This document shows positions 7,788 through 25,811 of a stretch of DNA of 64,000 bases, in pieces. The DNA lies in contig NZ_CAMTTE010000001.1 of the NCBI RefSeq assembly GCF_947077775.1, positions 620,001-684,000 of the forward strand, given 5' to 3'. Within the stretch, counting starts at the first letter, position 1, and each line of letters starts with the position of its first letter. Position numbers and translations under genes: made by a program. Under the pieces are notes generated by a model, which was given only the letters and a program-made list of their open reading frames with translations, made no database searches and was not told the origin of the DNA. This DNA comes from Salinibacter pepae (GTDB lineage Bacteria; Bacteroidota; Rhodothermia; Rhodothermales; Salinibacteraceae).

Positions 7788-9158
7788 ATGGACACTGCGC
7801 TCACCTACGCCGACAGCCACGCCGACCGGTTCGTCAGTGAGCTCGAGGAGCTTCTGCGCATCCCGTCGGTCAGCACCGACTCCGCCTACGACGACGAGGT
7901 GGAACGGGCCGCCGCGTGGCTCGCCGACCACTTCGACGGCATCGGGATGGAGCACACCGAGATCATCGAGACCGACGGCCATCCCCTCGTCTACGCCGAG
8001 CACATCACCGACCCGGCGAAGCCGACCGTCGTCGTGTACGGCCACTACGACGTGCAGCCGCCCGACCCGCTGGAGGAGTGGTCCACCGACCCGTTCGACC
8101 CAACCCGGCACGACGGCGCCCTGTACGCCCGCGGCGCGTGTGACGACAAGGGCCAGATGTTCATGCACGCCAAGGCCGCCGAGGCGTACCTGTCGGCCGA
8201 AGGCGACCTTCCGGTCAACCTCAAGTACATCATCGAGGGCGAAGAGGAAACCGGCTCGATGGCAATCGAGACGTACGTCCGCGAGCAGGGGGAGCGGCTC
8301 GACGGCGACGTCGTCCTCGTCTCGGACACGGCCATGTTCTCGCCGGAGACGCCGTCGATCACGTACGGCCTGCGCGGGCTGGCCTACGCCGAGATCACCC
8401 TGGAGGGCCCGAACCGCGACCTCCACTCCGGCAACTACGGCGGCGCCGTGGACAACCCGGCCAACGCGCTCAGTCGCCTCGTCGCCGGCCTGCACGACGA
8501 CGACCATCGCATCGCCATCCCTGGGTTTTACGAGGACGTGCGCGACCTGACGGCGGCCGAGCGCGAGACCTACGCCGCCCTTCCGTTTGACGAGGCGGCC
8601 TGGCGGGATGCCATCGGCATCGACGACGTGCGGACCGAGGGCGACTACACGACGCTGGAATGCCTCTCGGCCCGCCCCACGCTCGACGTGAACGGCATCT
8701 GGGGCGGCTACACCGGCGAGGGCGCCAAGACGGTGCTTCCGGCGAAGGCCCACGCCAAGATTTCGATGCGCCTCGTGCCCGACCAGCAGCTGGGGGACAT
8801 CTACGACAAGCTGGAGGCCCACCTGGCAGCGGAGGTGCCCGATACGATGACCCTCTCGGTGCGGCGGCTGCACGGGGGCGAGCCGGTGCTCGTCGACCCG
8901 TCCGCCCCGCCGATGCAGGCCGCCAAGGACGCCATGGGCGAGGTGCGCGGCACCGATCCGGTGTTCGTGCGCAACGGCGGCACGATCCCGGTGGTGGCGG
9001 ACTTCCAAAACCACCTGGGCCTTGACAGTGTGCTCATGGGCTTTGGGCTCGACTCCGACGCCATCCACTCGCCCGACGAACACTTCGGCCTCGACCGCTT
9101 TCACCAGGGGATCCAGGCCCTTATCCGGTTTCACGACCACTACGCCGCGATGGCTTGA
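7788..9158 (+). CDS. M20 family metallo-dipeptidase
   Basis: The 456-residue protein is a cytosolic M20/M28-type dipeptidase (CNDP/PepV-like). Metal-site residues are visible: His86 in VYGHYDVQP, an Asp in GACDDKGQ at about 119, the catalytic and ligand glutamates in IEGEEETGS, an Asp in SDTAMFSP and a C-terminal His in HSPDEHFGLDRF. The dimerisation 'lid' domain is inserted at about residues 205-370 (GPNRDLHSGNYGG...WGGYTGEGAKTVLPAKAHAKISMRLVP). There is no signal peptide. It probably hydrolyses dipeptides; exact substrates are unknown. It is the last gene before the tRNA-Leu and the island. Confidence 0.9.
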   Translation: MDTALTYADSHADRFVSELEELLRIPSVSTDSAYDDEVERAAAWLADHFDGIGMEHTEIIETDGHPLVYAEHITDPAKPTVVVYGHYDVQPPDPLEEWSTDPFDPTRHDGALYARGACDDKGQMFMHAKAAEAYLSAEGDLPVNLKYIIEGEEETGSMAIETYVREQGERLDGDVVLVSDTAMFSPETPSITYGLRGLAYAEITLEGPNRDLHSGNYGGAVDNPANALSRLVAGLHDDDHRIAIPGFYEDVRDLTAAERETYAALPFDEAAWRDAIGIDDVRTEGDYTTLECLSARPTLDVNGIWGGYTGEGAKTVLPAKAHAKISMRLVPDQQLGDIYDKLEAHLAAEVPDTMTLSVRRLHGGEPVLVDPSAPPMQAAKDAMGEVRGTDPVFVRNGGTIPVVADFQNHLGLDSVLMGFGLDSDAIHSPDEHFGLDRFHQGIQALIRFHDHYAAMA

Positions 9159-9371
9159 GTGCCCGTCCGGATGGCGCCGGTTGAGCCGGGGGCGCACTCG
9201 CGCGCCGCTCCGTCAACGGCACCGTGGGGACGGTGTGGGCCCCGCCTGCCGTCCGGGTGGCTTGTGCGCTCCGGAACCTGACGGCTGGGCTACGAATTGG
9301 GGCCTTTCGAAATTGACCGCTTCCCCACCGCTTTTCTTCGAACAGGCCCCGGCGGGGTCGGCCCCCCTCCT

Positions 9372-9455
9372 GCCCGAGTGGCGGAATTGGCAGACGCGAC
9401 GGATTCAAAATCCGTTGTCCGCAAGGACGTGAGGGTTCAAGTCCCTCCTCGGGCA
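9372..9455 (+). tRNA. tRNA-Leu (anticodon CAA)
   Basis: The 84-nt gene folds as a type II tRNA. The acceptor is GCCCGAG/CTCGGGC. The anticodon stem is ACGGA/TCCGT with loop TTCAAAA (anticodon CAA, reads UUG). A long variable arm follows (GTCC/GGAC stem), then the T arm GAGGG/CCCTC with TTCAAGT. CCA is not encoded. This is the integration site of the island: its 3' part, from the anticodon loop on, is repeated at 24130-24185. Confidence 0.97.
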
Positions 9456-9456
9456 C
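9403..9456 (+). repeat. left attachment repeat (attL) inside tRNA-Leu
   Basis: It is a direct repeat of 24130-24185. The blocks ATTCAAAATCCGTTG (15 nt) and CGTGAGGG...CGGGCAC (29 nt) are identical. The short variable-arm segment between them differs in sequence and is 2 nt shorter here. Confidence 0.9.
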
Positions 9457-9477
9457 TGACATTTTTAGCCTCAAGAT

Positions 9478-9515
9478 GCCCCTGAACGCCGTCAAACGGC
9501 GATGTCAGGGGCTTT
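9478..9515 (+). terminator. tRNA-Leu terminator (island copy)
   Basis: The inverted repeat GCCCCTGA...TCAGGGGC has a second internal pair (CGCCGT/ACGGCG) and is followed by TTT. A related hairpin follows the right att repeat at 24206-24240. Confidence 0.65.
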
Positions 9516-9641: not shown

Positions 9642-10757
9642 TCAGCTCTCCTCGAAGGCATCCTCCATGGCATCTGCTACCTCATCTACTCGGATATGAC
9701 TGTACCGCTCTGTCGTCGTAATCGAGGAGTGGCCCATGATTTCTTGAATGATGCGAGTAGAAACACCCTTACGCGATAGCAGAGAGACACATGAATGCCG
9801 GAGGGTGTGGAAACTGATACGCTTATCTAGGCCAGCTTTGAGTGCAAAATCTTTGAACCGTCTTGTCATCCGGTCTGGCTTTATCGGTTCGCCTCGCTGA
9901 TCGATAATGACGGCTTCGTCCTGTTCGACCCCCTCTCTCCTCTTCTTAATCTTATTCAGCCGGTCAAGGGCTCTCCCGCGAAGCGGCACGGATCGCTCGT
10001 CTCCAGTTTTCGTCCGAAAGTCCTCCCGGTTTCGAACCGATAGGACTCCAGATTCGAGATCCACGTCTGCCCAAATCATACTTGCGAGCTCTCCCCTCCG
10101 CAGGCCCGTGTACATGGCAATAACAATCGTATCTTTGAGCCACTGAACATCCGGCTGACGTCCAGCTACATCAGTTGTGGTTCCGCGATGCTTATCAATC
10201 GCGCTGAGTAGATCCTTGATGTCGCCAGGATCTAAGATCGGCGTCTCCCGATCTTCTTTGCGCGGTTTCTGAATTTGCTTTATTGGATTTTCCTCTAGAT
10301 ACCACTCGTCTTCACACCAACCGAGAAAGACGCTCAGGTGCCGGTATCGCTTCCGCTGAGTCGCGTTGGCAATTTCCGGATCATAGATGTAGCCTTTGAC
10401 GTCCTGAGGCCTTAGGTCGAGAACGTGGTACGTAGCTGGCAGCTCCCCAGCCCATGCCTCAAGCTGCTGCCGATACGTGTCAATCGTGGACGGCTGAACT
10501 GTTTTTTCTTTGTCGCGCAAGAACTGCCTAATGGCATTTTGAATAACCACGGGTTCAACTCTTTCTTCTCCAATCCATGGATCTCTCTTCCACGGATCAT
10601 ACTGACCCTCAGCCTGAGCTTCCTCTAACTTCTTCAGCTTCTTCTTAGCGGTATCTTTCAGACGTACCCGCAGCGGCACGCTCTTTCGTTTCGGAGACCG
10701 GTTTGGGTCATAGAAGTATGCGTAGTAGTTGCCATTTATTTTTCTCAAATTGGCCAT
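9642..10757 (-). CDS. int: tyrosine recombinase (island integrase)
   Basis: The 371-residue protein has an AP2-like N-terminal arm-binding domain (residues 1-55, NGNYYAYFYDPNRSPKRKSVPL), a SAM-like core-binding domain (about 68-165) and the catalytic domain. The catalytic set is complete: Arg220 (TGLRRGEL), Lys250 (TKTGDERSVPL), His317/Arg320 (HTLRH), His343 (MGHSS) and nucleophile Tyr352 (RYSH). It would integrate and excise the element at the tRNA-Leu att core. The gene is read towards the tRNA, only 185 bp from attL, and is more AT-rich than the chromosome, as expected of acquired DNA. The start ATG at 10757 precedes the conserved NGNYYAY block. Confidence 0.93.
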   Translation of the reverse strand: MANLRKINGNYYAYFYDPNRSPKRKSVPLRVRLKDTAKKKLKKLEEAQAEGQYDPWKRDPWIGEERVEPVVIQNAIRQFLRDKEKTVQPSTIDTYRQQLEAWAGELPATYHVLDLRPQDVKGYIYDPEIANATQRKRYRHLSVFLGWCEDEWYLEENPIKQIQKPRKEDRETPILDPGDIKDLLSAIDKHRGTTTDVAGRQPDVQWLKDTIVIAMYTGLRRGELASMIWADVDLESGVLSVRNREDFRTKTGDERSVPLRGRALDRLNKIKKRREGVEQDEAVIIDQRGEPIKPDRMTRRFKDFALKAGLDKRISFHTLRHSCVSLLSRKGVSTRIIQEIMGHSSITTTERYSHIRVDEVADAMEDAFEES

Positions 10758-10822: not shown

Positions 10823-10854
10823 CAACAACGGGCTCTCTCAGTCTGGCTACGTTG
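10823..10854 (+). repeat. 32-nt bipartite motif, copy 1
   Basis: CAACAACGGGCTC, 7 variable nt, CTGGCTAC, 1 nt, TTG. The same arrangement and spacing occurs at 16120-16151. This copy lies in the intergenic region between the divergent integrase and Xis-like genes. It may be a promoter or protein-binding site. Confidence 0.5.
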
Positions 10855-10980: not shown

Positions 10981-11292
10981 ATGGAGCCATCTTCAAAAAC
11001 CTCCTCCCAGAAGGCAGAGATTCTCGAACGCTTCCACCAATCGGATAATCTAACCGAAGAAGATGCTAGACTAATCGAGGATTTAGTAGATTGGGCCATC
11101 GATGAAAAACAGGACACTCCAGATCCCCTCTGGACGATTGAAGACGTATTCACTCGTCTAGACGTCGGTAAGCGAACCGTCGAGAAAATTATTGACGCTG
11201 GGGAGATTACCCCTATCTGGGTTCGTGGACAGCGCCGGTTTGAGCCAGAAGCAATTGAGGCTTACTTGCGCAGAAACGTTGGCAAGAAATAG
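10981..11292 (+). CDS. small HTH protein, excisionase-like
   Basis: The 103-residue protein has an acidic N-terminal half and then LWTIEDVFTRLDVGKRTVEKIIDAGEITPIWVRGQRRFEPEAIEAYLRR. This is the MerR/Xis-type 'HTH-17' fold: helix-turn-helix at about 52-72, a wing (IWVRGQRRF) and a final helix. Such proteins bend DNA at att sites or act as recombination directionality factors. It is divergent from the integrase and 224 bp away, a common layout for int/xis modules. Function as Xis is inferred from fold and position; a plain regulator is possible. Confidence 0.65.
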   Translation: MEPSSKTSSQKAEILERFHQSDNLTEEDARLIEDLVDWAIDEKQDTPDPLWTIEDVFTRLDVGKRTVEKIIDAGEITPIWVRGQRRFEPEAIEAYLRRNVGKK

Positions 11293-11334
11293 CCCTCCCT
11301 GCCCTGATTTAGGCCTTCTGGCGCAGAGTATGGA

Positions 11335-12171
11335 CTATCCGAGACGGTGAGTCCACCATCCGCCCACGGCCGCAGCCAAGAGGTCTCGCGTCACGGGGTT
11401 TTCGAGCTCCGGCCTCCGCCCCGGCGGAAGCCCCCATAACCACCCGATTGCAGCACCACCCCTGGCCGCAGAGTTTTCATACTGGGAGTCTGCAAGTTCG
11501 AGGACGTCTCCCACCACCGTCAGTGCCTCCTGGTCGAGACGATCTCCCTCCGCTGCCCGATGGGCGTACAGCGCGGCCTCGTTCGGCGCGTCTATGATTT
11601 CGCGGAAAACCGTTTGCATTGGGTCCGTCGGCTGGGTCAGCTCGTAGAGCACCCCGATCTTGTTGGCCTCAAGCAGCAACGCTTCACTGGGCACACCTAA
11701 CGCCCTTGCGATTGCCTCCACAACGCCTAGTCGAAGGCCTTTTCCTTTCTCGATTTTTAGCAGGGTCTGGCGCGTGATCGCGCCTGTCTTTTCAGCTAAG
11801 GCCGTCTTCGAGAGTCCGAAAAGCTTCCGGACCACCTGGACGTTCCGTCCCACGACGTAGTCGATCTTGCTTCCCGCATTGCGCCGCTGGCTAAGGGCAT
11901 CTAGGGTCTCCTCGCGGCGCGCAACCTCCTGTTTTACAGCCTTGAGGCGACGTTTGGCCTCCACCGTGCCCATTTTCACCTTCGCTCGCAGGAGGTCGTG
12001 AAGCACGTTTCTCGCTTTCTCATCGTCGCCGTCCTGGTAAGCACTACTCAGGCGCCGGATCTGATCGTCACTGGCAACCTCGCGGAGGTCGCCTTCGATT
12101 TCAGTCCCGCGGTGTCGCATGTCCTGTTTGAGCTTCTCGAAGTACTCGACGGCGTCCTTAGGTATTTCCAT
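11335..12171 (-). CDS. XRE-family transcriptional regulator with long N-terminal region
   Basis: The 278-residue protein has a helical N-terminal half of about 115 residues (EYFEKLKQDMRHRG..., RRLKAVKQEVARREETLDALSQRR). An XRE/Cro HTH follows: VVRKLFGLSKTALAEKTGAITRQTLLKIEKGKGLRLGVVEAIARALGV. The C-terminal tail (LTVVGDVLELADSQYENSAARGGAAIGWLWG) is not recognised. The ATG at 12171 is preferred. An upstream extension to 12282 is open but covers an AT-rich TTATATTAACA segment that looks like its promoter. It faces the Xis-like gene (stop to stop 42 bp) and is divergent from the DnaE-like gene, so it may repress island genes. It has no ImmA-type peptidase partner. Confidence 0.7.
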   Translation of the reverse strand: MEIPKDAVEYFEKLKQDMRHRGTEIEGDLREVASDDQIRRLSSAYQDGDDEKARNVLHDLLRAKVKMGTVEAKRRLKAVKQEVARREETLDALSQRRNAGSKIDYVVGRNVQVVRKLFGLSKTALAEKTGAITRQTLLKIEKGKGLRLGVVEAIARALGVPSEALLLEANKIGVLYELTQPTDPMQTVFREIIDAPNEAALYAHRAAEGDRLDQEALTVVGDVLELADSQYENSAARGGAAIGWLWGLPPGRRPELENPVTRDLLAAAVGGWWTHRLG

Positions 12172-12485
12172 GCCAGCTTGTGTTAATATAAATGTCGGTG
12201 CGTCGAATAGGTTAACGTCGTGCTCGGTGGTAGTCGTCCTCGGCCGTGGTGTTTCGGCAGGTAGAGCGCAGGGTCCTTCCATGCCCACCTATTCTCACCG
12301 GGTCTAGGTGGGCGTTGGAGATGTCTTGAGTTGTCCATCGGCCCTCAGCGCCGCTGGGAAGGGACAACAAAGCCCTTCGCTTTTCTCCGTTGGTTGTTAT
12401 TAGAGAGGATCAAACCTCAAGGCGAGCAGGAAGCTCGTGCCTCTCTCGCTTGCCGCCTTTGTGCGGTTACTAAACGTCAAAGCCA
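12172..12485. promoter_or_regulatory. divergent intergenic region between the XRE gene and dnaE-like gene
   Basis: About 310 bp without a convincing gene. It holds the AT-rich stretch next to the XRE start (near 12175-12195), a stem-loop at 12330-12368 and a TTGGTTGTTATTAG segment about 85 bp before the dnaE-like ATG. Divergent promoters probably lie here. Confidence 0.4.
12330..12368 (+). promoter_or_regulatory. stem-loop upstream of the dnaE-like gene
   Basis: GTTGTCC (12330-12336) pairs with GGACAAC (12362-12368), enclosing an inner CAGC/GCTG hairpin. There is no clear T-run, so a leader structure or operator is as likely as a terminator. Confidence 0.35.
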
Positions 12486-15400
12486 ATGAGAGTAGCTTTC
12501 ACCAGTACACCGAGCACCCTGAAGACACTTTTCAAAGACGCACTTTCTGAGCGCACAGTCCTCTGGAAAATCGAGGACATCGACTTCGACGACGACCGCC
12601 GGGAGGAAGTGATCAATTACATCGGGGAGCGCTACGGAGAGGACCGGGTCACGGAGGTGATCACCTTCGACCGGTATAAGCTCAAGTCGTCCGTGAGGAA
12701 TCTAGGCCGCGTCTTTGGCCTCAAGCCCACCGAGCAAGACGCGGTGGCTGATAAGATCGAGCAGGTCGAGGAGGAAGAAGGCATCGATACCGTGGAGGAG
12801 GCCCTAGACGCGAGCCCGGATCTGCGCAATCGCAGAGAGGAGGACGAACGCTTCGACCGCATCTGCAAGCGGGCCGACGACCTCCAGGGGCTTGCCCGCC
12901 ACCCGGGCCGCCATCCGGCCGCCGTCATCGTGACGCCCGGGGAGATGACCGACTACGTCCCGACCCGCACGATGAAAAGCGGCGGGGAGGAGCACACCGT
13001 CACCCATTTCGATGGGGACCAGCTCGAGGACATTGGCCTGCTGAAGATTGACGTGCTCGGCCTGGCGGCCCTAAACGAGATCGACACGGCTCTAGAGATG
13101 GCCCAAGACTTGGGCCACGACATCACCGAGGAGGACCTGGATGGCCGGGACGATCCGGCGGTGTACGAGAACATCTTCGCGGAGGGGGATACTCGCGGCA
13201 TCTTTCAGTTCGAGAGCGGCGGGATGCGCCAGTTTCTCGCGGAGATGGAGCCGACCGAATTCGTCCACATTGCGGCCATGAATGCCCTGTATAGGCCGGG
13301 CCCGATGGAGCAGATCCCGAGCTTCATCGACCGGATGCACGGAGAAGAAGAGGTCGTCTACATCGATCCCTCGATCCACGACGCGATCAAAGACGACGTG
13401 GCCGACATCCTGGACGACACCTACGGGATCATGGTCTTTCAGGAGCAGGTGATGCAGGTGTGCCGACGGCTGGCCGGGTTTGACCTCGGGGAGGCGGACA
13501 TTATGCGGAGATGCGTGCCTGGGGATACGGAGGTTGTCGATGCTGAAACTGGGGAGCGGAAACGCATCGACTCGATCGAACCGGGCACGTCAGTTCTCAC
13601 GATGAACGACGAATATGAGCTGGCAGAGACGACCGTCGCGAAGCGATTCGAGAACGGCACCAAGCCGACGTTTCGGGTCACCACGCGCAGCGGCCGTACC
13701 ATCGAGATGACGAAAGACCACCCCCTTCGCACAATTGGGGGTTGGGAGCATCTGTCCGACTTGTCAGAGGGAGATCCCATTGCCGTTCCATCATCCCTAC
13801 CGGCAAGCGGCACCGAAAGCCCGCCCGACGAGCGAATGCGCGTTGTTGCAAGTTTGATCGGAGACGGTCAGACGCTAAGAGGCAATGGAAGAGCTACGGC
13901 GCGGTTTTACAGCAGCGACCCTGACCTGCTTGACAGTTACTGCGATGCTGTGTCTAAACTGGGAGGGAATACGACTTCTTATGATCATCCCACCACTGAC
14001 GTGAAGACCGTTACGGCTCGTGGTCCAACAGAGGGGCAAAACCCCATCATAAACCTCGTTCGGGAGACGGGAATTGACGAGAAAGCGGCGGACAAGCGCC
14101 TGCCCGAAGAGGTCTTCCGATACGACGCAGAGTCGCTCGCCCGATTTCTCGCGTATCTGTTCGACACAGACGGGGGGTTTGAAGAAACCCGCGTCTCGTA
14201 CAGCTCGGCAAGCGAAGGCCTCATCGAGGATGTTGCTCACGCCCTCCTCCGCCTCGGTATCGTAACCATGCGGTTCCACCGCGAGATGTCAGACCATCAA
14301 GACAACTTTGAGCTCATAATCGGGGATCAGGAGGACATCGTACGGTTCGCGGATGTCGTTGGACCGCACCTCTGTCCCCGGAGGAAGAAGGCGCTTAAGC
14401 CCCTCAAGGCCGACGCTCTGGCCAAGTCTCGCAGCCACTCTATGTACAACCTTCCGGCCGAGATTACGCACAAAGTTCAGGAGGCAAAGTATGCGAGCGG
14501 ACGGACGTGGAAGGAGGGCGGTGAGATTGTCGGAAGGGAAGGGCGCAATTTATCCTCCGGGCTCAACTTCACCAACCCAAACCAGAAGCTCAGTCGGCAC
14601 CGGACGGAGGAATTGGGCCGTGCTTTCAATAGCGATGAGCTCGTCAACATCGCAGACGGAGAGGTGCTCTGGGACCCGATCGTCGACATTACGCCCGTCG
14701 GCGAGAAGAAGGTCTACGACTTAGCCGTGCCTCCACATCGTAATTTCGTAGCGTCGGATATCGTCATCCACAACTCGATCGGCAAGAAGAAAAAGAAGCT
14801 CCTGATGGAGCAGCGAAAGAAGTTCGTGCAGGGCTGCATCGATCAGGGCTACGGCCGGGAGCTGGGGGAAACCATCTTCCAAAAGATCGAGGAGTTTGCA
14901 GACTATGCGTTCAACCGCGCACATAGCTCGTCCTACGCCGCGCTGGCCTACAAGCAGGCCTACCTCAAATTCTACTGCCCGGCGGCCTTCTACGCCGCGG
15001 CGGTGCAGGCGGAGGGGAACGACGAGAAGCGAGCGGCGCTCATCCGGGACCTAAGCGAGCGGGGCGTCAAGGTGAAGCGCCCCTCGATCAACGAATCGAA
15101 AGCCGGCTTTGCGGCCACCAGCGACAACGTGGTTCGATTTGGCCTCTCCACCATCAAGAACGTCGGCAAGCAGGCGCAGGTGTTTCTTGAGGAGCGGGAG
15201 AGAGGCGGCCCGTTCGAGTCGTTCATGGAGTGCTTGTGTAGGTGCACGCCCAACGCCCGGGCGGTCAAAAGCCTGATCAAAGCGGGGGCCTTCGACGATT
15301 TCGACCTGTCGAGGGCGACGATGATGGAAAACCACGACAAGGTGCTTACCTACGCCCGGAAGCGCCGGGACTACAGGCAGGGCAGCCGGAAGTCGATGCC

Positions 15401-15926
15401 CGACGCCCCGAGCATCCATGAAGTGTCGGAGTTTCCCCGCAAGAGCCGCTTCCGGCAAGAGCGGGAGGTGGCGGTGACGTACACGTCCGGCGCCCCGACC
15501 GACGAGGTCGAGTGGCTCGCCCGGCACCTGAGCGGCCACGAGCACGTCCACAAGGGCACGAAGTACCGGCTGGAGCTGGCCACGATTTTGGAGGTGCGAG
15601 ATGCCACCACGAGCACCGGGAACCGGATGTGGTGGGTGACCTACCGCACCGCCGATGGCGAGGTCCCCGACTCCGCCGCGATGTGGGACAGCACCTACGA
15701 GGCGATCAGCGAGCACCTGGAGCCGGACACGCCCGTGGTGCTTGTTCTTGAAACTGACGTGGCCGGGGACTACGCCGGGAGCTACACCGTCGAGAACGCG
15801 GTCCCTGCGCGGCAGATTCCGGCCCGCCTGGGGCAAGTCGCGTGCGTGGAGACCGATTCCCCGGAGGCGGCCCGAAGGGCTTTAGAGCGGCTCTCTCAGC
15901 TTCCGGAGGGGGAGATGCGGGCGTAG
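12486..15926 (+). CDS. truncated DnaE-like DNA polymerase III alpha subunit with an in-frame intein
   Basis: The ORF has 1146 codons. Removing the intein (residues 343-763) leaves a 725-residue C-family polymerase. The three palm aspartates are present: Asp31 and Asp33 (EDIDFDDDRREE) and the Asp of LLKIDVLGL. So are RPGPMEQIPSFIDR, the finger motif SIGKKKKK, FNRAHSSSYA, the HhH region (SLIKAGAFDDF) and an OB-like tail. The N-terminal PHP domain and first part of the palm, about 370 residues in normal DnaE, are missing. The similarity begins abruptly at about residue 29, as if cut there. The tail is also shorter. It cannot be the host replicase; it may be an accessory polymerase or a captured fragment. 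It diverges from the XRE gene. Confidence 0.85.
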   Translation: MRVAFTSTPSTLKTLFKDALSERTVLWKIEDIDFDDDRREEVINYIGERYGEDRVTEVITFDRYKLKSSVRNLGRVFGLKPTEQDAVADKIEQVEEEEGIDTVEEALDASPDLRNRREEDERFDRICKRADDLQGLARHPGRHPAAVIVTPGEMTDYVPTRTMKSGGEEHTVTHFDGDQLEDIGLLKIDVLGLAALNEIDTALEMAQDLGHDITEEDLDGRDDPAVYENIFAEGDTRGIFQFESGGMRQFLAEMEPTEFVHIAAMNALYRPGPMEQIPSFIDRMHGEEEVVYIDPSIHDAIKDDVADILDDTYGIMVFQEQVMQVCRRLAGFDLGEADIMRRCVPGDTEVVDAETGERKRIDSIEPGTSVLTMNDEYELAETTVAKRFENGTKPTFRVTTRSGRTIEMTKDHPLRTIGGWEHLSDLSEGDPIAVPSSLPASGTESPPDERMRVVASLIGDGQTLRGNGRATARFYSSDPDLLDSYCDAVSKLGGNTTSYDHPTTDVKTVTARGPTEGQNPIINLVRETGIDEKAADKRLPEEVFRYDAESLARFLAYLFDTDGGFEETRVSYSSASEGLIEDVAHALLRLGIVTMRFHREMSDHQDNFELIIGDQEDIVRFADVVGPHLCPRRKKALKPLKADALAKSRSHSMYNLPAEITHKVQEAKYASGRTWKEGGEIVGREGRNLSSGLNFTNPNQKLSRHRTEELGRAFNSDELVNIADGEVLWDPIVDITPVGEKKVYDLAVPPHRNFVASDIVIHNSIGKKKKKLLMEQRKKFVQGCIDQGYGRELGETIFQKIEEFADYAFNRAHSSSYAALAYKQAYLKFYCPAAFYAAAVQAEGNDEKRAALIRDLSERGVKVKRPSINESKAGFAATSDNVVRFGLSTIKNVGKQAQVFLEERERGGPFESFMECLCRCTPNARAVKSLIKAGAFDDFDLSRATMMENHDKVLTYARKRRDYRQGSRKSMPDAPSIHEVSEFPRKSRFRQEREVAVTYTSGAPTDEVEWLARHLSGHEHVHKGTKYRLELATILEVRDATTSTGNRMWWVTYRTADGEVPDSAAMWDSTYEAISEHLEPDTPVVLVLETDVAGDYAGSYTVENAVPARQIPARLGQVACVETDSPEAARRALERLSQLPEGEMRA
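13512..14774 (+). other. intein with LAGLIDADG homing endonuclease, within the dnaE-like gene
   Basis: The intein is 421 codons (Cys343 to Asn763 of the host ORF). Splicing residues look complete. The N-terminus is CVPGDTEVVDAETGE (Cys1). Block B is TKDHPL with the TxxH pattern. The C-terminus is FVASDIVIHN followed by Ser as the +1 nucleophile, with penultimate His and final Asn. Two dodecapeptide (LAGLIDADG-type) motifs are present, RVVASLIGDGQ and RFLAYLFDTDGGF, each with the catalytic acidic residue. It is inserted just before the conserved M/I-GKKK finger motif. The extein on both sides stays in frame. The intein is slightly more AT-rich than the polymerase around it. Confidence 0.92.
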
Positions 15927-16119: not shown

Positions 16120-16151
16120 CAACAACGGGCTCAGAAGGACTGGCTACCTTG
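16120..16151 (+). repeat. 32-nt bipartite motif, copy 2
   Basis: Same CAACAACGGGCTC-N7-CTGGCTAC-N-TTG arrangement as 10823-10854. It lies about 160 bp before the family-A polymerase-like gene, in a 260-bp non-coding stretch. Confidence 0.5.
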
Positions 16152-16252
16152 GCAGGTGTAACGGAAAAAAGCAGAGGATGAGCGGTGTTCAGCCGACGAG
16201 TCACGGCCGGCCCTTCTTTTTAGATGAAAAAAAAACTGAACATTTGAAATAA

Positions 16253-16264
16253 TCCCAGCTGGGA
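16253..16264. promoter_or_regulatory. 12-bp perfect palindrome upstream of the polymerase-like gene
   Basis: TCCCAGCTGGGA lies 48 bp before the ATG, directly after an A-rich, AT-rich stretch (16221-16252) that could hold the promoter. Position and symmetry suggest an operator. Confidence 0.35.
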
Positions 16265-16312
16265 CAAACCTCACCACATTCGTTCTTCCTGGAATTAGCA
16301 TCAACCTGATCT

Positions 16313-18946
16313 ATGATCGAACGCACAGAGAACCGTATCAACAATGACGAGCTGGCGATCCCGTTTGTCGGGACTCGGAATCCGGAGAAAGCCCCGCACC
16401 AGTCATCACCCCGGAAATACGCCTACGGACACGGGAGCGGGGCTGGCTGGTCAAGCAGGCGTGGAGGAACAGAGTCCAGCGAGAGCGGCCGTCCCTTGAG
16501 CGAGGAGCCACAGATAAGCGAGCGGCTCGAGGACTTGGCCCGTCCGCTCGTGCGGATCTACGAGCGACAGCCCCCCGGGACAATACAGGCAAAGCCCCCC
16601 CTGCCCTCGCTGGACTGCCCGACTGGCCGGGCGTACCTGGAGACCGGGCTCGTCGTAAGCGAGCTCATCGGCCGCGACCAGAAGCAAGGCCAGATCCGTG
16701 CCGGGGCCATCTACGACCGCCTCTCCCGGCGCGCCTGCCGGGAGCTGCGCTCGTCCCATGGGCCGAATTTGATCAGTGCGGGAGGAGATGCGGAGGTCCT
16801 TCGTGTCGCCTGGACGCCGAGCCCTATCGACGCCACGACGTACCTCCACTTCTCACGGGGCCCTTTGCTAGCGCGGGCACACGCTACGTGCCGACAACTC
16901 CAGGCAGGGGCCGCCGAGATTGCCGAGGCGACCGCTACCCTCTTCGAAGACGGTGATCCCAAGTCCCTAGAGATACTGCTTTCCACTTTCTGGGAAACGA
17001 AGGCTTATGGGAACCCCCGCCGTCCCGTTAACTCCCCGCCGCCCACTTATCCTTCCGCCCCATCCCCTTCCACCTCCTCCTATGTCCTTGAAGCCCTTTC
17101 GGATCTATCCCCATCTCTCCATCCTCCCTCGGCTAATACACCCCACGTACGGGAAGTACTGAAGGAGGTCCAGAATAAGAAAAGCCTGCTTCTGACGCCG
17201 ATTGAGCGGGAATGGGCGGCAGCTACAGAGGACGTATCGGATGTAAAGCTTGTACGGGCATGGAAGCACGAGTCCCTTCCCAGCGGCAGAAGCCCCAGTG
17301 GCGCGCAGGGCGTGTCCATCCCCCCGAACGTCTCCGAGGGGCTCTACTGGAAAATCGAGGACCATCTTCCCCGGGTTGCAGCGGATGCGGAGCTCCGGCG
17401 TGCTCTGGTGTACCTCAAGATGGTCGCCCGGCCGGACCCGCGATCCGGGTACCTGCCGTTCCACGAAACTGCCGTTGCCCACATCCGGGGCGCGCCCAGC
17501 CTCGCAGACCGGCACGAGGCGCGGGTATACGACCTGGCCGAGCGGCTCCAGGAGGCCGTCGCCAAGGACATGAAAATAGGGAACGCAGGTCCTCCTCCCT
17601 TTCGCGTCGTCGGGCACGCAAAGGGCCAAAACTGCGTGCAAATTACCCCATTCGCTCTCCCCGATCCTCTCGAAGAGGCATTTTCCGAGGAGGCCAGCCG
17701 GGCCCTCCTGGCGATCACCACCGGCGATCTCCGGGCAACGGTCAACCTCGAGTCCGGCAACAGGGGCCGCCCAGAGCGGCGGCAGAAGCGCAGGGAGCGG
17801 CGGCGAAGGAAAGCAGAACGGACCGGCAAGCGGCACGACGTACCCGACCGTGCCCAGTGCTTGCAGCAGGAACTCCACGACCTCCCTCAGAGTCGCTTTC
17901 GGAGCAACCTCAAAAGCGCGAAAGACAAGCTTCTCGCCTTAGCCGAGGAGCGAGCCGAAGAGCAGCCTGAAGCGGGGGCCGCCCCGAAAGTGCTCCCCTA
18001 CCTCGGACAGCTGCGGGCCATCGCCGACGTGAGCGTTCCCCTGTATAAGTTTACGGGGAGCACCCTCCGGCTCACTCCGGCGGGCCCCTCGCTCGCGGCG
18101 CTCCCGAAGAAGATGCGGCGGGCGGTTTTCAGCGACTACCTCGAAGTAGACATGTCTTCCGCCCAGCTTGCGCTGGCGGGGTCCCTGTGGGACTTTCCCG
18201 CCCTGCGGGAATTCCTGAGAGAGTGCACAGGAAGTGACAGGAGCTGGTGGTCGGAGCTGGCTGGGCATCTGGCCGAGGAGCTCCCTGCCCCCCACTACGA
18301 CCCGGGCAAGCACTTCGAGGCGGTCAAGGGCACGCTCAAAGCCTTCACATACGGCCTTTTTTTCGGGATGCAGCGGAAAAACCTGCGGCGACTCGGGAAC
18401 CCCAAGGCCGCCTCCACCGACGAGGCCCAGTACCACGAGTCGGCCCGTAAGATGAACCTTCTCTTTCTCGGGAAAGCCCGTTTCCCGCACGAGAAGAGAG
18501 CCATCCAGGCGAGGGCCGGAAAGGTTGGGAGCGCGCTCCTCAGTCACCCCCTGATCGAAGGGCTCCTGCGGCGGCGCGAACAGCTGCTCTCCAAAATTCG
18601 GAAAGATGGGAGCATTACCGACTGCTTCGGCCGCTCTCTCGACACAGGCGGGGGCCGAGACGCGAAGAGCATCCTCGCCGAGTATATGCAGAACGCCGAG
18701 CTGAGGGTGATGCTGCCGGTCGGGGAGACGGTCTTGGGCGACCCGGAGCTGAGGTTCGGCCTCTGGCAGCACGACGGGGTGACGATCGCCCCACGGCGGC
18801 GGAAGCCCTGGGCATACCGCGGGGCTGTTGAGACGACGCGTGAGGCGCTTCAACGAGGCCGAGAGGGGCTGGCCGAAGAGATGGACGTGCCACCGATTGA
18901 AACCGAGCTAACCGTCGACTACGGGAAAGAGTACCTGGCGTCTTGA
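16313..18946 (+). CDS. divergent family-A (Pol I-like) DNA polymerase
   Basis: The protein has 877 residues; the last third carries a Pol I-type palm/fingers. Motif A is EVDMSSAQLALAG, with catalytic Asp613 and Gln618 where Pol I has steric-gate Glu710. The O-helix is KGTLKAFTYGLFFGM: Lys672 (Arg754), Lys676 (Lys758), Tyr680 (Phe762, Tyr in T7), Phe684 (Tyr766). Then come DGSITDCFGRSL (like the family's G-x-x-x-T-x-x-GR), AEYMQNAELRVM (the QGxxAD region) and motif C QHDGVTI with Asp821 but Gly822 in place of Glu. The N-terminal 500 residues have no 3'-5' exonuclease motifs I could see; residues ~480-520 are very basic. The ATG at 16313 is the first in frame; a later start is possible. This is an inferred catalytic assignment. 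Confidence 0.65.
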   Translation: MIERTENRINNDELAIPFVGTRNPEKAPHQSSPRKYAYGHGSGAGWSSRRGGTESSESGRPLSEEPQISERLEDLARPLVRIYERQPPGTIQAKPPLPSLDCPTGRAYLETGLVVSELIGRDQKQGQIRAGAIYDRLSRRACRELRSSHGPNLISAGGDAEVLRVAWTPSPIDATTYLHFSRGPLLARAHATCRQLQAGAAEIAEATATLFEDGDPKSLEILLSTFWETKAYGNPRRPVNSPPPTYPSAPSPSTSSYVLEALSDLSPSLHPPSANTPHVREVLKEVQNKKSLLLTPIEREWAAATEDVSDVKLVRAWKHESLPSGRSPSGAQGVSIPPNVSEGLYWKIEDHLPRVAADAELRRALVYLKMVARPDPRSGYLPFHETAVAHIRGAPSLADRHEARVYDLAERLQEAVAKDMKIGNAGPPPFRVVGHAKGQNCVQITPFALPDPLEEAFSEEASRALLAITTGDLRATVNLESGNRGRPERRQKRRERRRRKAERTGKRHDVPDRAQCLQQELHDLPQSRFRSNLKSAKDKLLALAEERAEEQPEAGAAPKVLPYLGQLRAIADVSVPLYKFTGSTLRLTPAGPSLAALPKKMRRAVFSDYLEVDMSSAQLALAGSLWDFPALREFLRECTGSDRSWWSELAGHLAEELPAPHYDPGKHFEAVKGTLKAFTYGLFFGMQRKNLRRLGNPKAASTDEAQYHESARKMNLLFLGKARFPHEKRAIQARAGKVGSALLSHPLIEGLLRRREQLLSKIRKDGSITDCFGRSLDTGGGRDAKSILAEYMQNAELRVMLPVGETVLGDPELRFGLWQHDGVTIAPRRRKPWAYRGAVETTREALQRGREGLAEEMDVPPIETELTVDYGKEYLAS

Positions 18947-20577: not shown

Positions 20578-20626
20578 TGAGAAATTTCTACAAGTAGACT
20601 TTCTTTCGTAAAAAACCTTGCGTGAA

Positions 20627-22030
20627 ATGCCGGAAACAGATTCCGAATACCAATACCCGTTGGTCTCTCTCTTTACAGGTGCAGGGGGGCTAGATATAGG
20701 GCTTGAGAAGGCTGGCTTTAATACAGTTTTTGCGAATGATAATAAAGATTGGGCATGTGAAACAATAAAGAGAAATAGAAGGCTATCTGGACTAACAAAA
20801 CAAGAATTTGGAAATTGGTTTAATAAGCAGATACAGCAAAGGTGTCACAAGTATGCCTCTGACGAAGAAATAGAAAACTTAAGGAGACGTGTAGAGCCTT
20901 CCAGAAAAAATAAGAGTTTCTTAAACGATGCTAATGTTGTCCAGGGTGATATCTCCGATATCTCCTCGCAGCAAATAATGGACGCCGCGGGTATAGAAGT
21001 AGGTGAGGCCTCGGTAGTGGCGGGTGGCCCCCCGTGTCAGTCTTTCAGCCGCTCTGGTGACAGAGAATCTGTAGAGGTTGATAAAGGACAGTTGTTCGTT
21101 GAGTTCGTGCGTGTGGTGGATGACTTAGAGCCATCCTGGTTCATATTTGAGAATGTCAAAGGGCTGGAGACCGCTAAAACAGATGTTCTTTACGAGGTCT
21201 GCTTAAATTGCGGAAACCAAGAAATACCCCTCTTCGCCAAAAGACAAGAATGGACCCCGGAAGCCTCTCCTCCATCTTCTACTTGCAGTACTTGTGGTAG
21301 TAATAAATTAGAGTGGGAGCTTGAGGAAGAAAAAGGCGGATCGCTAAAAATTATAATCAACGAGTTCGAAAAGAGAGCCGGATATGATTGCCAGTACAAG
21401 GTTTTGAATGCAGCAAACTTTGGCGCTCCGCAAAAACGCAAGAGACTGTTCATAGTAGGGTCTGAGGACGGGTCAGATTTTTCTTGGCCTTCTCCCACAC
21501 ACATGGATCCCAATAAAAACGGATTTCAGGTTGACGCCTTTGCAAGCAGCAACGGTGCTCGTCGACCCTGGGTCACGATGTGGGATGCTATTTGGAAGGA
21601 TGGACATTTCAAGTATGGTGAGTTGGATCCTGATGTGGCTCGGTTATGGGTACGTAACGTCGTTCGTCCCAAGGACGAGCCTGTTACGTGGAGATTGGAC
21701 AAACGCCCTTCCCCGACTGTTGGAGCTCATCAAGCTGCCAAGTTGTCGATTGCGCCTAACGGCGTTCCTGAAAAACAGATCGAACGCCAACAGTGGCACA
21801 CGAAAGGAAATCGGCAAGGGGATACTCCACCCGTAGAGGTCGAATATGAGTTTCTAAGCGATGGTGAGTTACTGATGCTCCAGACTTTCTCTCAGAACCG
21901 GTACCTATACGGAACCCGAATGCAGCGTGCTAAGCAGATTGGTAATGCAGTACCGCCCCTCTTAGGGGAGGTTGTCGGGGAGGCAGTAGCAGAAGCTATG
22001 GAAACGCGGAAAGCTTCTTCTTACTGTTGA
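20627..22030 (+). CDS. DNA (cytosine-5-)-methyltransferase
   Basis: The 467-residue protein methylates C5 of cytosine in an unknown DNA sequence. Motifs in order: I VSLFTGAGGLDIGL (about 13-26), IV GGPPCQSFSRSG with nucleophile Cys137, VI FENVKGLE, VIII QKRKRLFIVG, a target-recognition region at about 300-400, and X QRAKQIGNAVPPLLG. Between VI and VIII sits an insert with two CxxC pairs (Cys192/195 and Cys220/223), which looks like a zinc ribbon and is not part of the usual core. The ATG at 20627 is chosen over TTG at 20618. With the downstream gene it probably forms a type II R-M pair. Confidence 0.92.
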   Translation: MPETDSEYQYPLVSLFTGAGGLDIGLEKAGFNTVFANDNKDWACETIKRNRRLSGLTKQEFGNWFNKQIQQRCHKYASDEEIENLRRRVEPSRKNKSFLNDANVVQGDISDISSQQIMDAAGIEVGEASVVAGGPPCQSFSRSGDRESVEVDKGQLFVEFVRVVDDLEPSWFIFENVKGLETAKTDVLYEVCLNCGNQEIPLFAKRQEWTPEASPPSSTCSTCGSNKLEWELEEEKGGSLKIIINEFEKRAGYDCQYKVLNAANFGAPQKRKRLFIVGSEDGSDFSWPSPTHMDPNKNGFQVDAFASSNGARRPWVTMWDAIWKDGHFKYGELDPDVARLWVRNVVRPKDEPVTWRLDKRPSPTVGAHQAAKLSIAPNGVPEKQIERQQWHTKGNRQGDTPPVEVEYEFLSDGELLMLQTFSQNRYLYGTRMQRAKQIGNAVPPLLGEVVGEAVAEAMETRKASSYC

Positions 22031-22284: not shown

Positions 22285-23301
22285 ATGGCTGGACCAACTG
22301 TTGCTGCATTCACCGATACTGAACACCAACGGGCTTACAAGCTTCTGGCCTCCAAAGTCGCTACGATGGGTGGTCGTAAGCTGGAAGAGGATGATTGGAA
22401 CTCAGTTTATTTGCAGACAAAGCGTTTTCCAGAAAGCGGATGGAGCAACACCGATCTCGATATCAACCATGAGGGTCTTGGAGTTGAGTCGAAACTTCTG
22501 AAGTCGACTCGTAAAGGTGGGGTCTCATCATACTTCGGGGATACAGTCATGCACCCTGCTGGTACTCGGGCCGTAGACACACCCGAGTATGGTTTTGGGA
22601 ACGGTGATGCCGACGAGGCTGCTCATTTCATGGTTCAAGAGTACGCGGACTACATCCGTAGACGACAGAATGAGGTCAGAGAGAACTCTTCCGACGGTGA
22701 GGCTGATCTTAGGCTGTCTCTGTTGATCTGGGAAGAGGATCTTTCAGAGTTCATCTATTTTGAGCGCCGATGGACTCCTCCTGATCCTGATGACTTCTAT
22801 GGTGAGTGGTCCCATAACCCCCGAAGTAGCAGTAAGAGACAGTCTAGTACCAGCCTACATGTTTACAGAGAAGCTAACGACGAGAAACGTTACTCAGTGA
22901 CAGATCCAAGTAAGGGGGTAAAGGTCCAACCGTATATCGACGTACCAGAAGAGGACAGCGACCATCTATACCACTTCGTGGCCCAGGGGGAGACGCCTGG
23001 AGCCTCAATGAAAAGACGGGTGTGGGCTCCACCCACTCTTGATACGTATTTGAAGACGAAGCTTGGCGATGACGTAGACGGAGAGATGCTTAGCAATAAA
23101 ATCTATGAGTTCGCTGACAGAGTCTCTTCGGGAGAAATCGACCTCAGTTCTGACGATGGTGTAGAGTCCATCTCCGTTGCTGAGCCTTTCGATATCACTC
23201 AGGAAGCTTACTCGATACTCCAAGAATTGTCGGAAGCAAGCGACACCGACGCTCTCAGGCTGGTTGCGAGAAAGCTGGAGCGCAACCAAACTGGGACTTG
23301 A
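22285..23301 (+). CDS. candidate type II restriction endonuclease (PD-(D/E)xK-like)
   Basis: The 338-residue protein is not recognised by family. Near the N-terminus, SNTDLDINHEGLGVESKLLKS has the spacing of a PD-(D/E)xK nuclease: Asp57/Asp59, then Glu68-Ser-Lys70 in a beta-strand context. Further on there is a mixed alpha/beta region (LRLSLLIWEEDLSEFIYFERRW) and a charged helical C-terminus. Position directly after a 5mC methyltransferase, with the same AT-rich composition, supports the role of cognate endonuclease. It has its own spacing of 254 bp from the methyltransferase, with a hairpin between. An alternative is a DNA-binding helper protein. The ATG at 22285 is the first in frame. Confidence 0.5.
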   Translation: MAGPTVAAFTDTEHQRAYKLLASKVATMGGRKLEEDDWNSVYLQTKRFPESGWSNTDLDINHEGLGVESKLLKSTRKGGVSSYFGDTVMHPAGTRAVDTPEYGFGNGDADEAAHFMVQEYADYIRRRQNEVRENSSDGEADLRLSLLIWEEDLSEFIYFERRWTPPDPDDFYGEWSHNPRSSSKRQSSTSLHVYREANDEKRYSVTDPSKGVKVQPYIDVPEEDSDHLYHFVAQGETPGASMKRRVWAPPTLDTYLKTKLGDDVDGEMLSNKIYEFADRVSSGEIDLSSDDGVESISVAEPFDITQEAYSILQELSEASDTDALRLVARKLERNQTGT

Positions 23302-23518: not shown

Positions 23519-23975
23519 GTGATACGCCCCGATAAGCTTCCGAAAGTGCTGACCGAGGCCGAGACGGAGTGTCTCATTCAACAACCGAATCAGCGATACT
23601 ATGGCCTCCACCGCGACTACTTACTTCATGCGGCTAATGCTGGATGCGGGACTTCGAGCATCGGAGGCGGTCTCCTCTCGGCCTGAACACGTGGACCTGA
23701 TGAGCGGGAAATCAATGGTCCGAGAGGGCAGAGGTGCAAAGGACCGCACACTCTGGGTTGGAGGAGATTTGCTCGACGAATTCCAGGAATGGATGAAACG
23801 TCACCCAGAACCAGACCAGTTACTCCCAACGCGAAGCGGGAAGAATGTGGCGACCTCGCGCCTCCGTCGGTCGGTGAAGCGGTACACTCGTGATGCGGAG
23901 ATTGAAGAAATAGAGCGGGTTTCTCCGTACCTTCCGACACGCCTCTTGCTATACGACTACACCGGGACACTGTAA
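23519..23975 (+). pseudogene. decayed tyrosine recombinase (XerC/D-like)
   Basis: Recombinase sequence is spread over two frames. From 23519, VIRPDKLPKVLTEAETECLIQQPNQRY is the usual start of the XerC/D catalytic domain. After a frameshift near 23600, the frame from 23601 gives RLMLDAGLRASEAVSSRPEHVDL (the catalytic Arg region) and GRGAKDRTLWV (Lys region). It ends with VSPYLPTRLLLYDYTGTL, where the H-x-x-R box should be (P-H-T-x-R-H). The box and the catalytic Tyr are lost to a small deletion and early stop. It is GC-richer than the preceding gene and lies next to attR, so it may be a relic of an earlier insertion. Confidence 0.7.
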
Positions 23976-24129: not shown

Positions 24130-24185
24130 ATTCAAAATCCGTTGGTGCTTACGCACCGTGAGGGTTCAAGTCCCTCCTCGGGCAC
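24130..24185 (+). repeat. right attachment repeat (attR): 3' fragment of tRNA-Leu
   Basis: This carries the anticodon loop, 3' anticodon strand, variable arm, T arm and acceptor 3' strand of a tRNA-Leu, without any 5' half. The variable arm (GGTGC...GCACC type) differs from the one in the intact tRNA at 9372. It is presumably the original chromosomal 3' end displaced by integration. Confidence 0.88.
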
Positions 24186-24205
24186 CCCCATTCCCCTCGA
24201 ACATC

Positions 24206-24240
24206 GCCCCTGAGCGCCGTTTGCCGGCGCACCCAGGGGC
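24206..24240 (+). terminator. original tRNA-Leu terminator-like hairpin
   Basis: GCCCCTG-A-GCGCCG...CGGCGC-ACC-CAGGGGC stem-loop directly after attR. It matches the design of the hairpin after the intact tRNA (9478-9515), as expected if both served the same gene. Confidence 0.5.
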
Positions 24241-24728
24241 TGTTCTACCGTTGAGGGCCCCTGCCGGGCGGACAGCTCTTCGAAAAGGCCCGTCGTGACG
24301 GAGGCGTCCGCGGGAGGCCCACTCCGGTCCCCGCGGGGATCGCCACTACGGGCGTCGGTGAGGCGGACGCCAAGGGGCCCGCGCCCCGGCTTCCTTCCAT
24401 TCTCGGGCCCGTTGGCCGGCGGCCCACGGCAACGAAAGGCCCAGACGACCGGGCAACGAGCTCGCTGAACTCAAGACTTCTTCCCGCATCGGCTGTCCGC
24501 CCTTTCGCCCCTCTGTTGAAGAGCATTCCTCTGCACCGACGAAGACGAGGGGGAGGTCCCATTGCCCGGTCGGCGCCCGCCAACCCAACACAGATGGGCT
24601 TAATTTTGGCTTTACGAGTCGCCCAAACCTTTCCGTATAACACAGGTAGGACGTGACGACATTGGGGCGGCGTTCCCTCCCAACGCGTCGCCTCCTGCGA
24701 TGGGGCCCCCTCTGGTGTTCTCCTTTCG
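24241..24728. other. 488-bp intergenic stretch at the right border of the island
   Basis: No convincing gene. The only long frame runs antisense through the following flippase gene and has shadow-type composition. The AT-richer part near 24595-24650 could carry the promoter of the next gene. Confidence 0.4.
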
Positions 24729-25811
24729 ATGTCTTCTCCTTCGTCCGTCACGTCCCCTCCTCCATCAAGTGACGAATCCCCCCAGGACTCGTCTCGGCCC
24801 CGCACCGCCGGCTCCGCCCGCAACATTGTGGTGTCCCTCCTGCTGAGCGGGCTGGTGCTGGCCGGGGTCGGGTACGCCACCTTCGACGCCGGCGCCTTCC
24901 GCCGCCTGATCCAACACCTGCGCCCGGGACTGCTGGCCGCGGCCCTCGCCGTCGCCATCGCCCGCATCGGCCTCGGGGGGTGGCGCCTCCGCCAGGTCTC
25001 GGAGGGCCGCCTCTCCCTCCGGAGCGGCACCCGCGGGCAGCTGGCCTGGGACTTCTTCTCCAGCGTCACCCCCTCGGTCGTCGGCGGCGGCCCGGTGGCC
25101 GCCTTCTACGTGGCCCGCGACGAGGACCTCGCGGTTGGGGAGTCGGCCGCCCTCCTGTTCTTCTGCGTCCTGCTGGACCAGCTCTGGTTCCTGGTCGCCA
25201 TCCCGCTGCTGGTCCTGGCCACCTTTACCATCGACCTGCTGCCCCGCGCGGCCGGCGCGGTCGGGGGGTGGACCCTGCTTGCCTACTTCGGCGGGCTGGG
25301 GGGCTGGGCGGCCCTCTACGCCTACGCCACCCTGGTCCGCCCCCGCCTGCTGGTGGCGGGGGCCGACTGGTGCGTCCGGTGGCCCTACCTGCGCCGCTTC
25401 CGCAAGACGGTCATGCCGGAGATGCGGGCCTACTTCCGGCGGGCGCGCCACCTCGGGAGCCGCCCCCCTGCCTTCTACGCCTCCGGCTTCGCCCTGACGG
25501 CCCTCACCTGGATCGCCCGCTACGCCCTCGTGGTTCTCGTCGTCCGCAGCGTCTACGCGGCCGACGCCCTGCTTCTCTTTGCCCGCTCGGCGGCAATGAT
25601 GCTGGTGGGCCTGATCATGCCCACCCCCGGGGGCTCCGGCGGCCTGGAGGGCCTCTACGCCCTCTTCATCGGCCCGCTGATGCCGGAGGCGCTCCTGGCC
25701 CCCACCCTCCTGACCTGGCGCCTGCTGGGCTACTACCTCTTCATCGCGCTCGGGGCCTCCCTCTTCCTCCACCAACTGCACCAAAGACGGGCCGGCGGGG
25801 CAACCCGGTGA
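24729..25811 (+). CDS. flippase-like membrane protein (LPG synthase TM / UPF0104 family)
   Basis: The 360-residue integral membrane protein has about eight hydrophobic segments after a Ser/Pro-rich N-terminal tail of 30 residues. The family signature PTPGGSGGLEG is present near residue 300, and FFSSVTPSVVGGGPVAAFYVAR near 100 matches the conserved 'tP...GGep...y' region. The family (PF03706) includes the membrane half of MprF and archaeal AglD and is thought to move or modify lipid-linked molecules. There is no C-terminal aminoacyl-transfer domain, so lysyl-PG synthesis is not indicated. Typical high-GC chromosomal composition resumes here, outside the island. Confidence 0.75.
   Translation: MSSPSSVTSPPPSSDESPQDSSRPRTAGSARNIVVSLLLSGLVLAGVGYATFDAGAFRRLIQHLRPGLLAAALAVAIARIGLGGWRLRQVSEGRLSLRSGTRGQLAWDFFSSVTPSVVGGGPVAAFYVARDEDLAVGESAALLFFCVLLDQLWFLVAIPLLVLATFTIDLLPRAAGAVGGWTLLAYFGGLGGWAALYAYATLVRPRLLVAGADWCVRWPYLRRFRKTVMPEMRAYFRRARHLGSRPPAFYASGFALTALTWIARYALVVLVVRSVYAADALLLFARSAAMMLVGLIMPTPGGSGGLEGLYALFIGPLMPEALLAPTLLTWRLLGYYLFIALGASLFLHQLHQRRAGGATR

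Follow-up and report, generated by a model that had tools for sequence, protein, structure and literature searches.

The interval between positions 16313 and 18946 of the 64,000-nucleotide stretch of Salinibacter pepae DNA analyzed here (the window, whose features lie on the forward strand unless stated otherwise) contains a reading frame for a protein of 877 residues, and the locus raises the question of whether this protein is a genuine relative of bacterial DNA polymerase I (Pol I) and which role it would play in its host. A preliminary description had noted motifs of Pol I in the last third of the protein, in combination with an unusual active site. The frame is uninterrupted from its ATG start to its TGA stop codon, and the residues highlighted in that description (Asp613, Gln618, Lys672, Lys676, Tyr680, Phe684, His820, Asp821 and Gly822) are all found at the positions assigned to them. 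Used as a single query, the protein does not match any family in Pfam, PHROGs, NCBIfam or PADLOC, and a single-sequence search of the PDB returned nothing meaningful. A profile constructed from 16 members of the polymerase family matches Taq Pol I in the PDB with an E-value of 1.3e-5 (3.8e-5 in another profile search), and the alignment traverses TxR, motif A, the O-helix, FGR, the Q-helix and motif C in this order; the succession of motif A, O-helix and motif C had been proposed from inspection by eye. The comparison of profiles by hhalign, which had been suggested as a check, yields probabilities of 91-92% when Pol I proteins from chromosomes of the phylum are used as the counterpart (pairwise E-values of 1e-6 and 6e-7). 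The better of these results, 92% with a set of 14 chromosomal Pol I proteins (pairwise E 6.4e-7), spans residues 247-534 of the trimmed protein. The Pfam model PF00476 is reached by one of the 16 members (E 0.0023) and does not match the window protein alone. Searched with this model, the genome of the host yields only its true Pol I while both clade members it encodes are missed, and surveys relying on PF00476 may thus overlook the clade.

For a view of the fold, we used AlphaFold with an input of 16 sequences, from which the Deinococcus plasmid protein was left out. The model of the trimmed protein displays a mean pLDDT of 82.8 and a pTM of 0.73. The polymerase core, which comprises palm and fingers and extends from TxR to the C-terminus (residues ~560-877; 17990-18943), is mostly predicted with pLDDT values of 80-97, and its strands and helices follow one another as in a Pol A palm. 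In a Foldseek search of the PDB, all 50 matches listed are family-A polymerases (E about 1e-6, probability 1.00). The TM-scores of the whole model to Pol I are low (0.35-0.42), which we attribute to about 225 N-terminal residues without counterpart and to inserts. A chance resemblance of motifs is ruled out by the profile match to Taq Pol I, the hhalign comparison and the Foldseek result. Profile, profile-profile and fold comparisons thus support the assignment of the window protein as a divergent family-A polymerase with an altered nucleotide-binding site.

The region preceding the core is less well defined. Residues 1-335 are mostly modeled with low confidence, and residues 69-258 are related to the protein of another element, at the locus L046 (31% identity). 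Residues ~340-450 (17330-17662) are conserved across the polymerase family and form a domain that is predicted to be winged-helix-like from the order of helices and strands in the models, whereas a search of the PDB with its profile found nothing credible. The initial impression that the N-terminal 500 residues match nothing recognizable consequently holds for database searches, but not for comparisons with relatives of the protein. The domain is followed by a very basic helix RPERRQKRRERRRRKAERTGK (residues ~480-507), and the helices between this element and the palm may constitute a reduced thumb. A 5' nuclease (FEN-like 5'-3' exonuclease) domain was not found by Pfam or NCBIfam and no Pfam exonuclease domain for proofreading was detected in any of the 16 members. 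A match at the locus L014 turned out to be spurious.

The conservation of active site residues was evaluated in 16 clade members, 15 of which contain sequence at motif C. Arg586 of the TxRL motif (18068-18070), which corresponds in the profile alignment to Arg668 of Pol I, is found in all 16 proteins, as is Asp613 (Asp705) at the start of motif A (18149-18166). The O-helix (18326-18367; predicted helix 664-683) contains Lys672 (a conservative replacement of Arg754, Lys in 13/16), Lys676 (Lys758, 15/16), Tyr680 (Phe762, Tyr in 15/16), Phe684 (Tyr766, Tyr or Phe in 16/16) and the invariant Gly685 (16/16). In the Q-helix (18689-18700), Gln793 (Gln849) is shared by 15 of the 16 members and accompanied by a family-specific glutamate, Glu796, that is present in all of them. 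Motif C (18770-18778) reads His820-Asp821-Gly822 in place of His881-Asp882-Glu883, with the aspartate conserved in 15/15, and the last position occupied by glycine in 13/15 and glutamate in 2/15 sequences. Since both catalytic aspartates are invariant, the protein is very likely an active polymerase.

Two substitutions that had been recorded for the window protein are properties of the entire family. The position of Glu710, where Gln618 ends motif A, is occupied by Gln in 11 and His in five of the 16 members and by Glu in none, and Tyr680 is nearly as widely shared. The Glu710 gate, which in Pol I blocks ribonucleotides, is conserved in family A without defining it, and its absence from the clade marks a variant. 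Because Gln and His are bulky, a loss of sugar discrimination is not deducible from the sequence. T7 polymerase also has a tyrosine at the position of Phe762, which for the clade predicts an acceptance of ddNTPs. The third substitution, Gly822 at the position of Glu883, is present as described but less special than it had appeared, as two relatives retain the glutamate and the polymerase of the Thermus phage Tt72 is active with a serine in its place (PMC9324360). Glu796, which is located three residues past the equivalent of Gln849 at a position where the chromosomal consensus QGTAAD contains an alanine, may stand in for the lost carboxylates. The two relatives retaining the equivalent of Glu883 constitute a sub-branch (L037:9395-11188 and L038:9438-11426) with the motif C sequence KYDE, and in another member (L034:726-2996) both the O-helix lysine and the Gln849 equivalent are missing.

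Clade members were identified in 12 of 114 genomes of the order and, class-wide, in 13 of 245 genomes, one of them as a short fragment. Although their sequences are mostly only 20-30% identical to each other, the catalytic residues are still conserved. A second member in the genome of the host resides on the 39.8-kb contig C2. Its gene crosses the contig ends in frame, giving an open frame of 1021 codons in total, and a relative matches the protein over the join, from which we infer that C2 is a closed circle and thus a plasmid. One further member, annotated as 'hypothetical protein', is encoded on the plasmid pDEIPE01 of Deinococcus peraridilitoris. A phage origin is unsupported, as two members used as queries matched none of 50,697 phage records by sequence and scans of viral contigs provided no confirmed member. 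A scan of genome contigs with degenerate patterns recovered only two known loci of one metagenome genome, although the patterns are insensitive and test absence weakly. In a phylogenetic tree built together with Pol I proteins from chromosomes of the phylum, with no phage PolA among its sequences, the clade is separated with a support of 100/100 and is monophyletic and fast-evolving. The branches joining it to Pol I total about 6 changes per column, and many of its terminal branches measure 1.3-2.5, compared to 0-0.5 in Pol I. Due to these long branches, the inner order of the clade is unsure. The host retains its own chromosomal Pol I as a separate gene, so the clade gene does not serve a housekeeping function, and its origin as a recent copy is ruled out since the host gene is located elsewhere and very distant in sequence.

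The polymerase is a new lineage that branches deeply within a known family and occurs in an unusual setting, and the function given for it below is a proposal. With bacterial Pol I (PolA1; Taq, Klenow, Bst) it shares the fold of palm and fingers, the motif order, the pair of aspartates, the O-helix lysine and Gln849, whereas the sequence identity is only about 15%, Glu710 is replaced by Gln or His and Phe762 by Tyr, no 5' nuclease or proofreading domain is detected, an additional N-terminal domain is present and the gene belongs to mobile elements. A survey from 2026 that covers more than 3000 species of bacteria distinguishes the groups PolA1, PolA1-like, PolA2 (APEX) and PolA3, and the words plasmid, Rhodotherm- and Salinibacter are absent from its main text (PMC12926913). 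PolA2 and PolA3 are likewise family-A proteins accessory to Pol I, and PolA3 is also linked to mobile DNA in the form of prophages, but these proteins contain a vestigial or active 3'-5' exonuclease (PMC12926913), which was not found in the clade. The PolA proteins of T7 and other phages resemble the clade as replicases encoded by an element and are distant fold matches to the window protein, but they differ by the lack of sequence matches to the clade in phage records and by an exonuclease domain that is not detected in the clade. The Tt72 polymerase is similarly a very divergent member of family A with a non-carboxylate at the Glu883 position, yet it keeps the equivalents of Glu710 and Phe762 and contains a strong proofreading domain (PMC9324360). 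Plasmid-encoded AEP PrimPols, such as that of pTN2, plausibly share a role as replication polymerases although their fold is unrelated, and our literature search did not turn up a family-A PrimPol. In a family treated as well charted, the clade is a deep branch unseen by the Pfam model and located on plasmids and integrated islands.

The preliminary description did not capture the wider polymerase family, nor the mobile element and the adjoining DnaE gene described in the following. Judged from its sequence, the window is host to a 14.7-kb element integrated at tRNA-Leu, and the polymerase gene is located within it. The segment is lower in G+C and flanked by a left attachment repeat (9428-9463), which contains the 3' part of the tRNA-Leu gene (9372-9456), and a right repeat of 92% identity (24157-24192). 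A 1.3-kb stretch of the related genome G003 displays the empty site, where sequences matching 8885-9515 (88%) and 24130-24926 (81%) of the window are found side by side. Adjoining the tRNA, a tyrosine integrase is encoded on the reverse strand (9642-10757; PF00589, E 2.4e-35), and related integrases are found near the polymerase gene at six further loci, giving seven in total. The element also contains a small excisionase-like HTH_17 protein (10981-11292; PF12728) and, as cargo, a C5-cytosine DNA methyltransferase (20618-22030; PF00145, PADLOC MTase_II). Elsewhere, the polymerase gene neighbors ParA on C2, RepA and ParA in L034 and a DnaQ-like exonuclease in L039; other restriction or defence genes in its vicinity are of Mrr type in L038, MmeI-like in L045 and BrxA in L042. 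The contig L034 carries two very different clade members (726-2996 and 11036-13474) alongside RepA and ParA. Adjoining the methyltransferase in the window, a 338-residue protein without family (22285-23301) could be its restriction endonuclease partner, and near the right end, a shortened fragment of a second tyrosine integrase (23601-23975) resembles one on the plasmid C2.

Directly upstream of the polymerase gene, the window and L046 (L046:4625-7771, genome G008) both encode a DnaE, a homologue of the Pol III alpha subunit, that has lost its head. In the window (12486-15926), it was recognized by the Pfam finger, HhH and partial alpha domains and by its alignment to the host DnaE and the L046 protein, and it is interrupted by an intein with a LAGLIDADG endonuclease (13512-14774; PF14890, PF14528, PADLOC HEase). 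Compared to the host DnaE, this DnaE has no PHP domain and lacks the initial portion of the palm, and the host sequence SMPDIDIDF is replaced by LWKIEDIDF with the consequent loss of the first catalytic aspartate (Asp401 of E. coli). The clamp motif (QNSLF in the host) is deleted. The L046 protein, found in the same gene order, has still less of the head and has likewise lost the clamp motif. The exteins of both proteins are 62% and 47% identical, with dN/dS values of about 0.33 and 0.49 at a dS near saturation; the genes have stayed open, and both thus appear to be under purifying selection. A recent copy of the host DnaE is ruled out, since its best segment is 47% identical. In these two cases, the protein is plausibly a non-catalytic partner, and why two elements retain a DnaE without catalytic head has become a testable question. 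A host gene for a RuvB-like helicase (L050, G000:C1:3305658-3306350) bears an intein related to that of the headless DnaE.

Taken as a whole, we consider it reasonably probable that the protein is the family-A polymerase of an integrative element, copying the DNA of the element in its excised or plasmid phase. Palm and fingers would catalyze two-metal nucleotidyl transfer via Asp613 and Asp821, with the incoming nucleotide bound by Lys676, Lys672 and Tyr680 of the O-helix and the primer end contacted by Arg586 and Gln793, while the winged-helix-like domain and the basic helix would tether the polymerase to the element DNA or an initiator. As no such domains were detected in the polymerase, proofreading and 5' nuclease activities must come from elsewhere, and would be supplied by the host, with its chromosomal Pol I, or by a neighbor such as the DnaQ-like exonuclease in L039, whose proximity to one copy favors this assignment. 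It is further favored by the homology to Pol I, the fold matches and the conserved catalytic residues, and by the location on the circular plasmid C2 with ParA, on a contig with RepA and ParA and on a Deinococcus plasmid, the related integrases, the tRNA-Leu element with its empty site and the separate Pol I of the host. Against it stand the presence of RepA in L034, where the polymerase is not the sole replication gene, the low TM-scores, the member of L034 without O-helix lysine and the failure to find an iteron array beside the gene, for which reason we reject iterons as proof of a Rep role. The assignment suggests that bacterial mobile elements outside phages can carry their own family-A replicase.

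The gate position that is never Glu in 16 members, the conserved winged-helix-like domain, the plasmid location with ParA and the fact that no separate primase was recognized among the genes of the window element would also fit a priming polymerase or initiator, which would bind the origin by this domain and, in the manner of a Rep-type primase-polymerase, make and extend a short RNA or mixed primer. We regard this as unlikely, since Gln, almost an isostere of Glu, may retain the gating function, one contig encodes RepA in addition to the polymerase, iterons are lacking beside the gene and the 50 fold matches listed contain no single-subunit RNA polymerase. Whether a natural substitute for the Glu710 gate can exist becomes a testable question. 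That the clade would constitute a novel type of replication protein for plasmids and islands, uniting primase and polymerase in one chain with the winged-helix-like domain, with a sugar selection relaxed by Gln or His and a headless DnaE as partner in some elements, is a bolder proposal that we hold to be quite improbable. It is very unlikely that the element carries the protein as cargo for repair or lesion bypass, similar to PolA2/APEX or the mutasome DnaE2 and with the headless DnaE as non-catalytic partner. The undetected proofreading domain, the DnaE beside the polymerase in two elements and the participation of inactive polymerase homologues as partners in known mutasomes (PMC12926913) are compatible with such a role, but DnaE is present at only 2 of about 15 loci, genes for ImuA/ImuB, RecA-like proteins or LexA were not recognized in the element, and the polymerase genes are associated with mobile elements and with genes for partition. 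That the protein is a relic devoid of catalysis or a structural replication factor with retained fold, as could be suspected from the loss of the Glu710 and Glu883 equivalents and the very long branches, is most improbable in light of both aspartates and the equivalents of Arg668, Lys758 and Gln849 being conserved at identities of mostly 20-30%, and of the serine tolerated at the Glu883 position in the active Tt72 enzyme (PMC9324360). A single-subunit RNA polymerase of the T7 type is rejected, with no such protein found in Pfam or among the listed fold matches.

Several DNA sites surround the polymerase gene. The palindrome ATCCCAGCTGGGAC upstream of the gene (16252-16265), a candidate operator or origin site, is a 14-mer that occurs at one place in the 3.6-Mb host genome with up to one mismatch. 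In the two elements that carry DnaE, those of the window and of L046 (7900-7911), the polymerase gene is preceded by the palindrome TCCCAGCTGGGA. Finally, a 32-nucleotide direct repeat of the form CAACAACGGGCTC-N7-CTGGCTACNTTG, for which the chance expectation is none, is found at 10823-10854 ahead of the small HTH gene and at 16120-16151 ahead of the polymerase gene.
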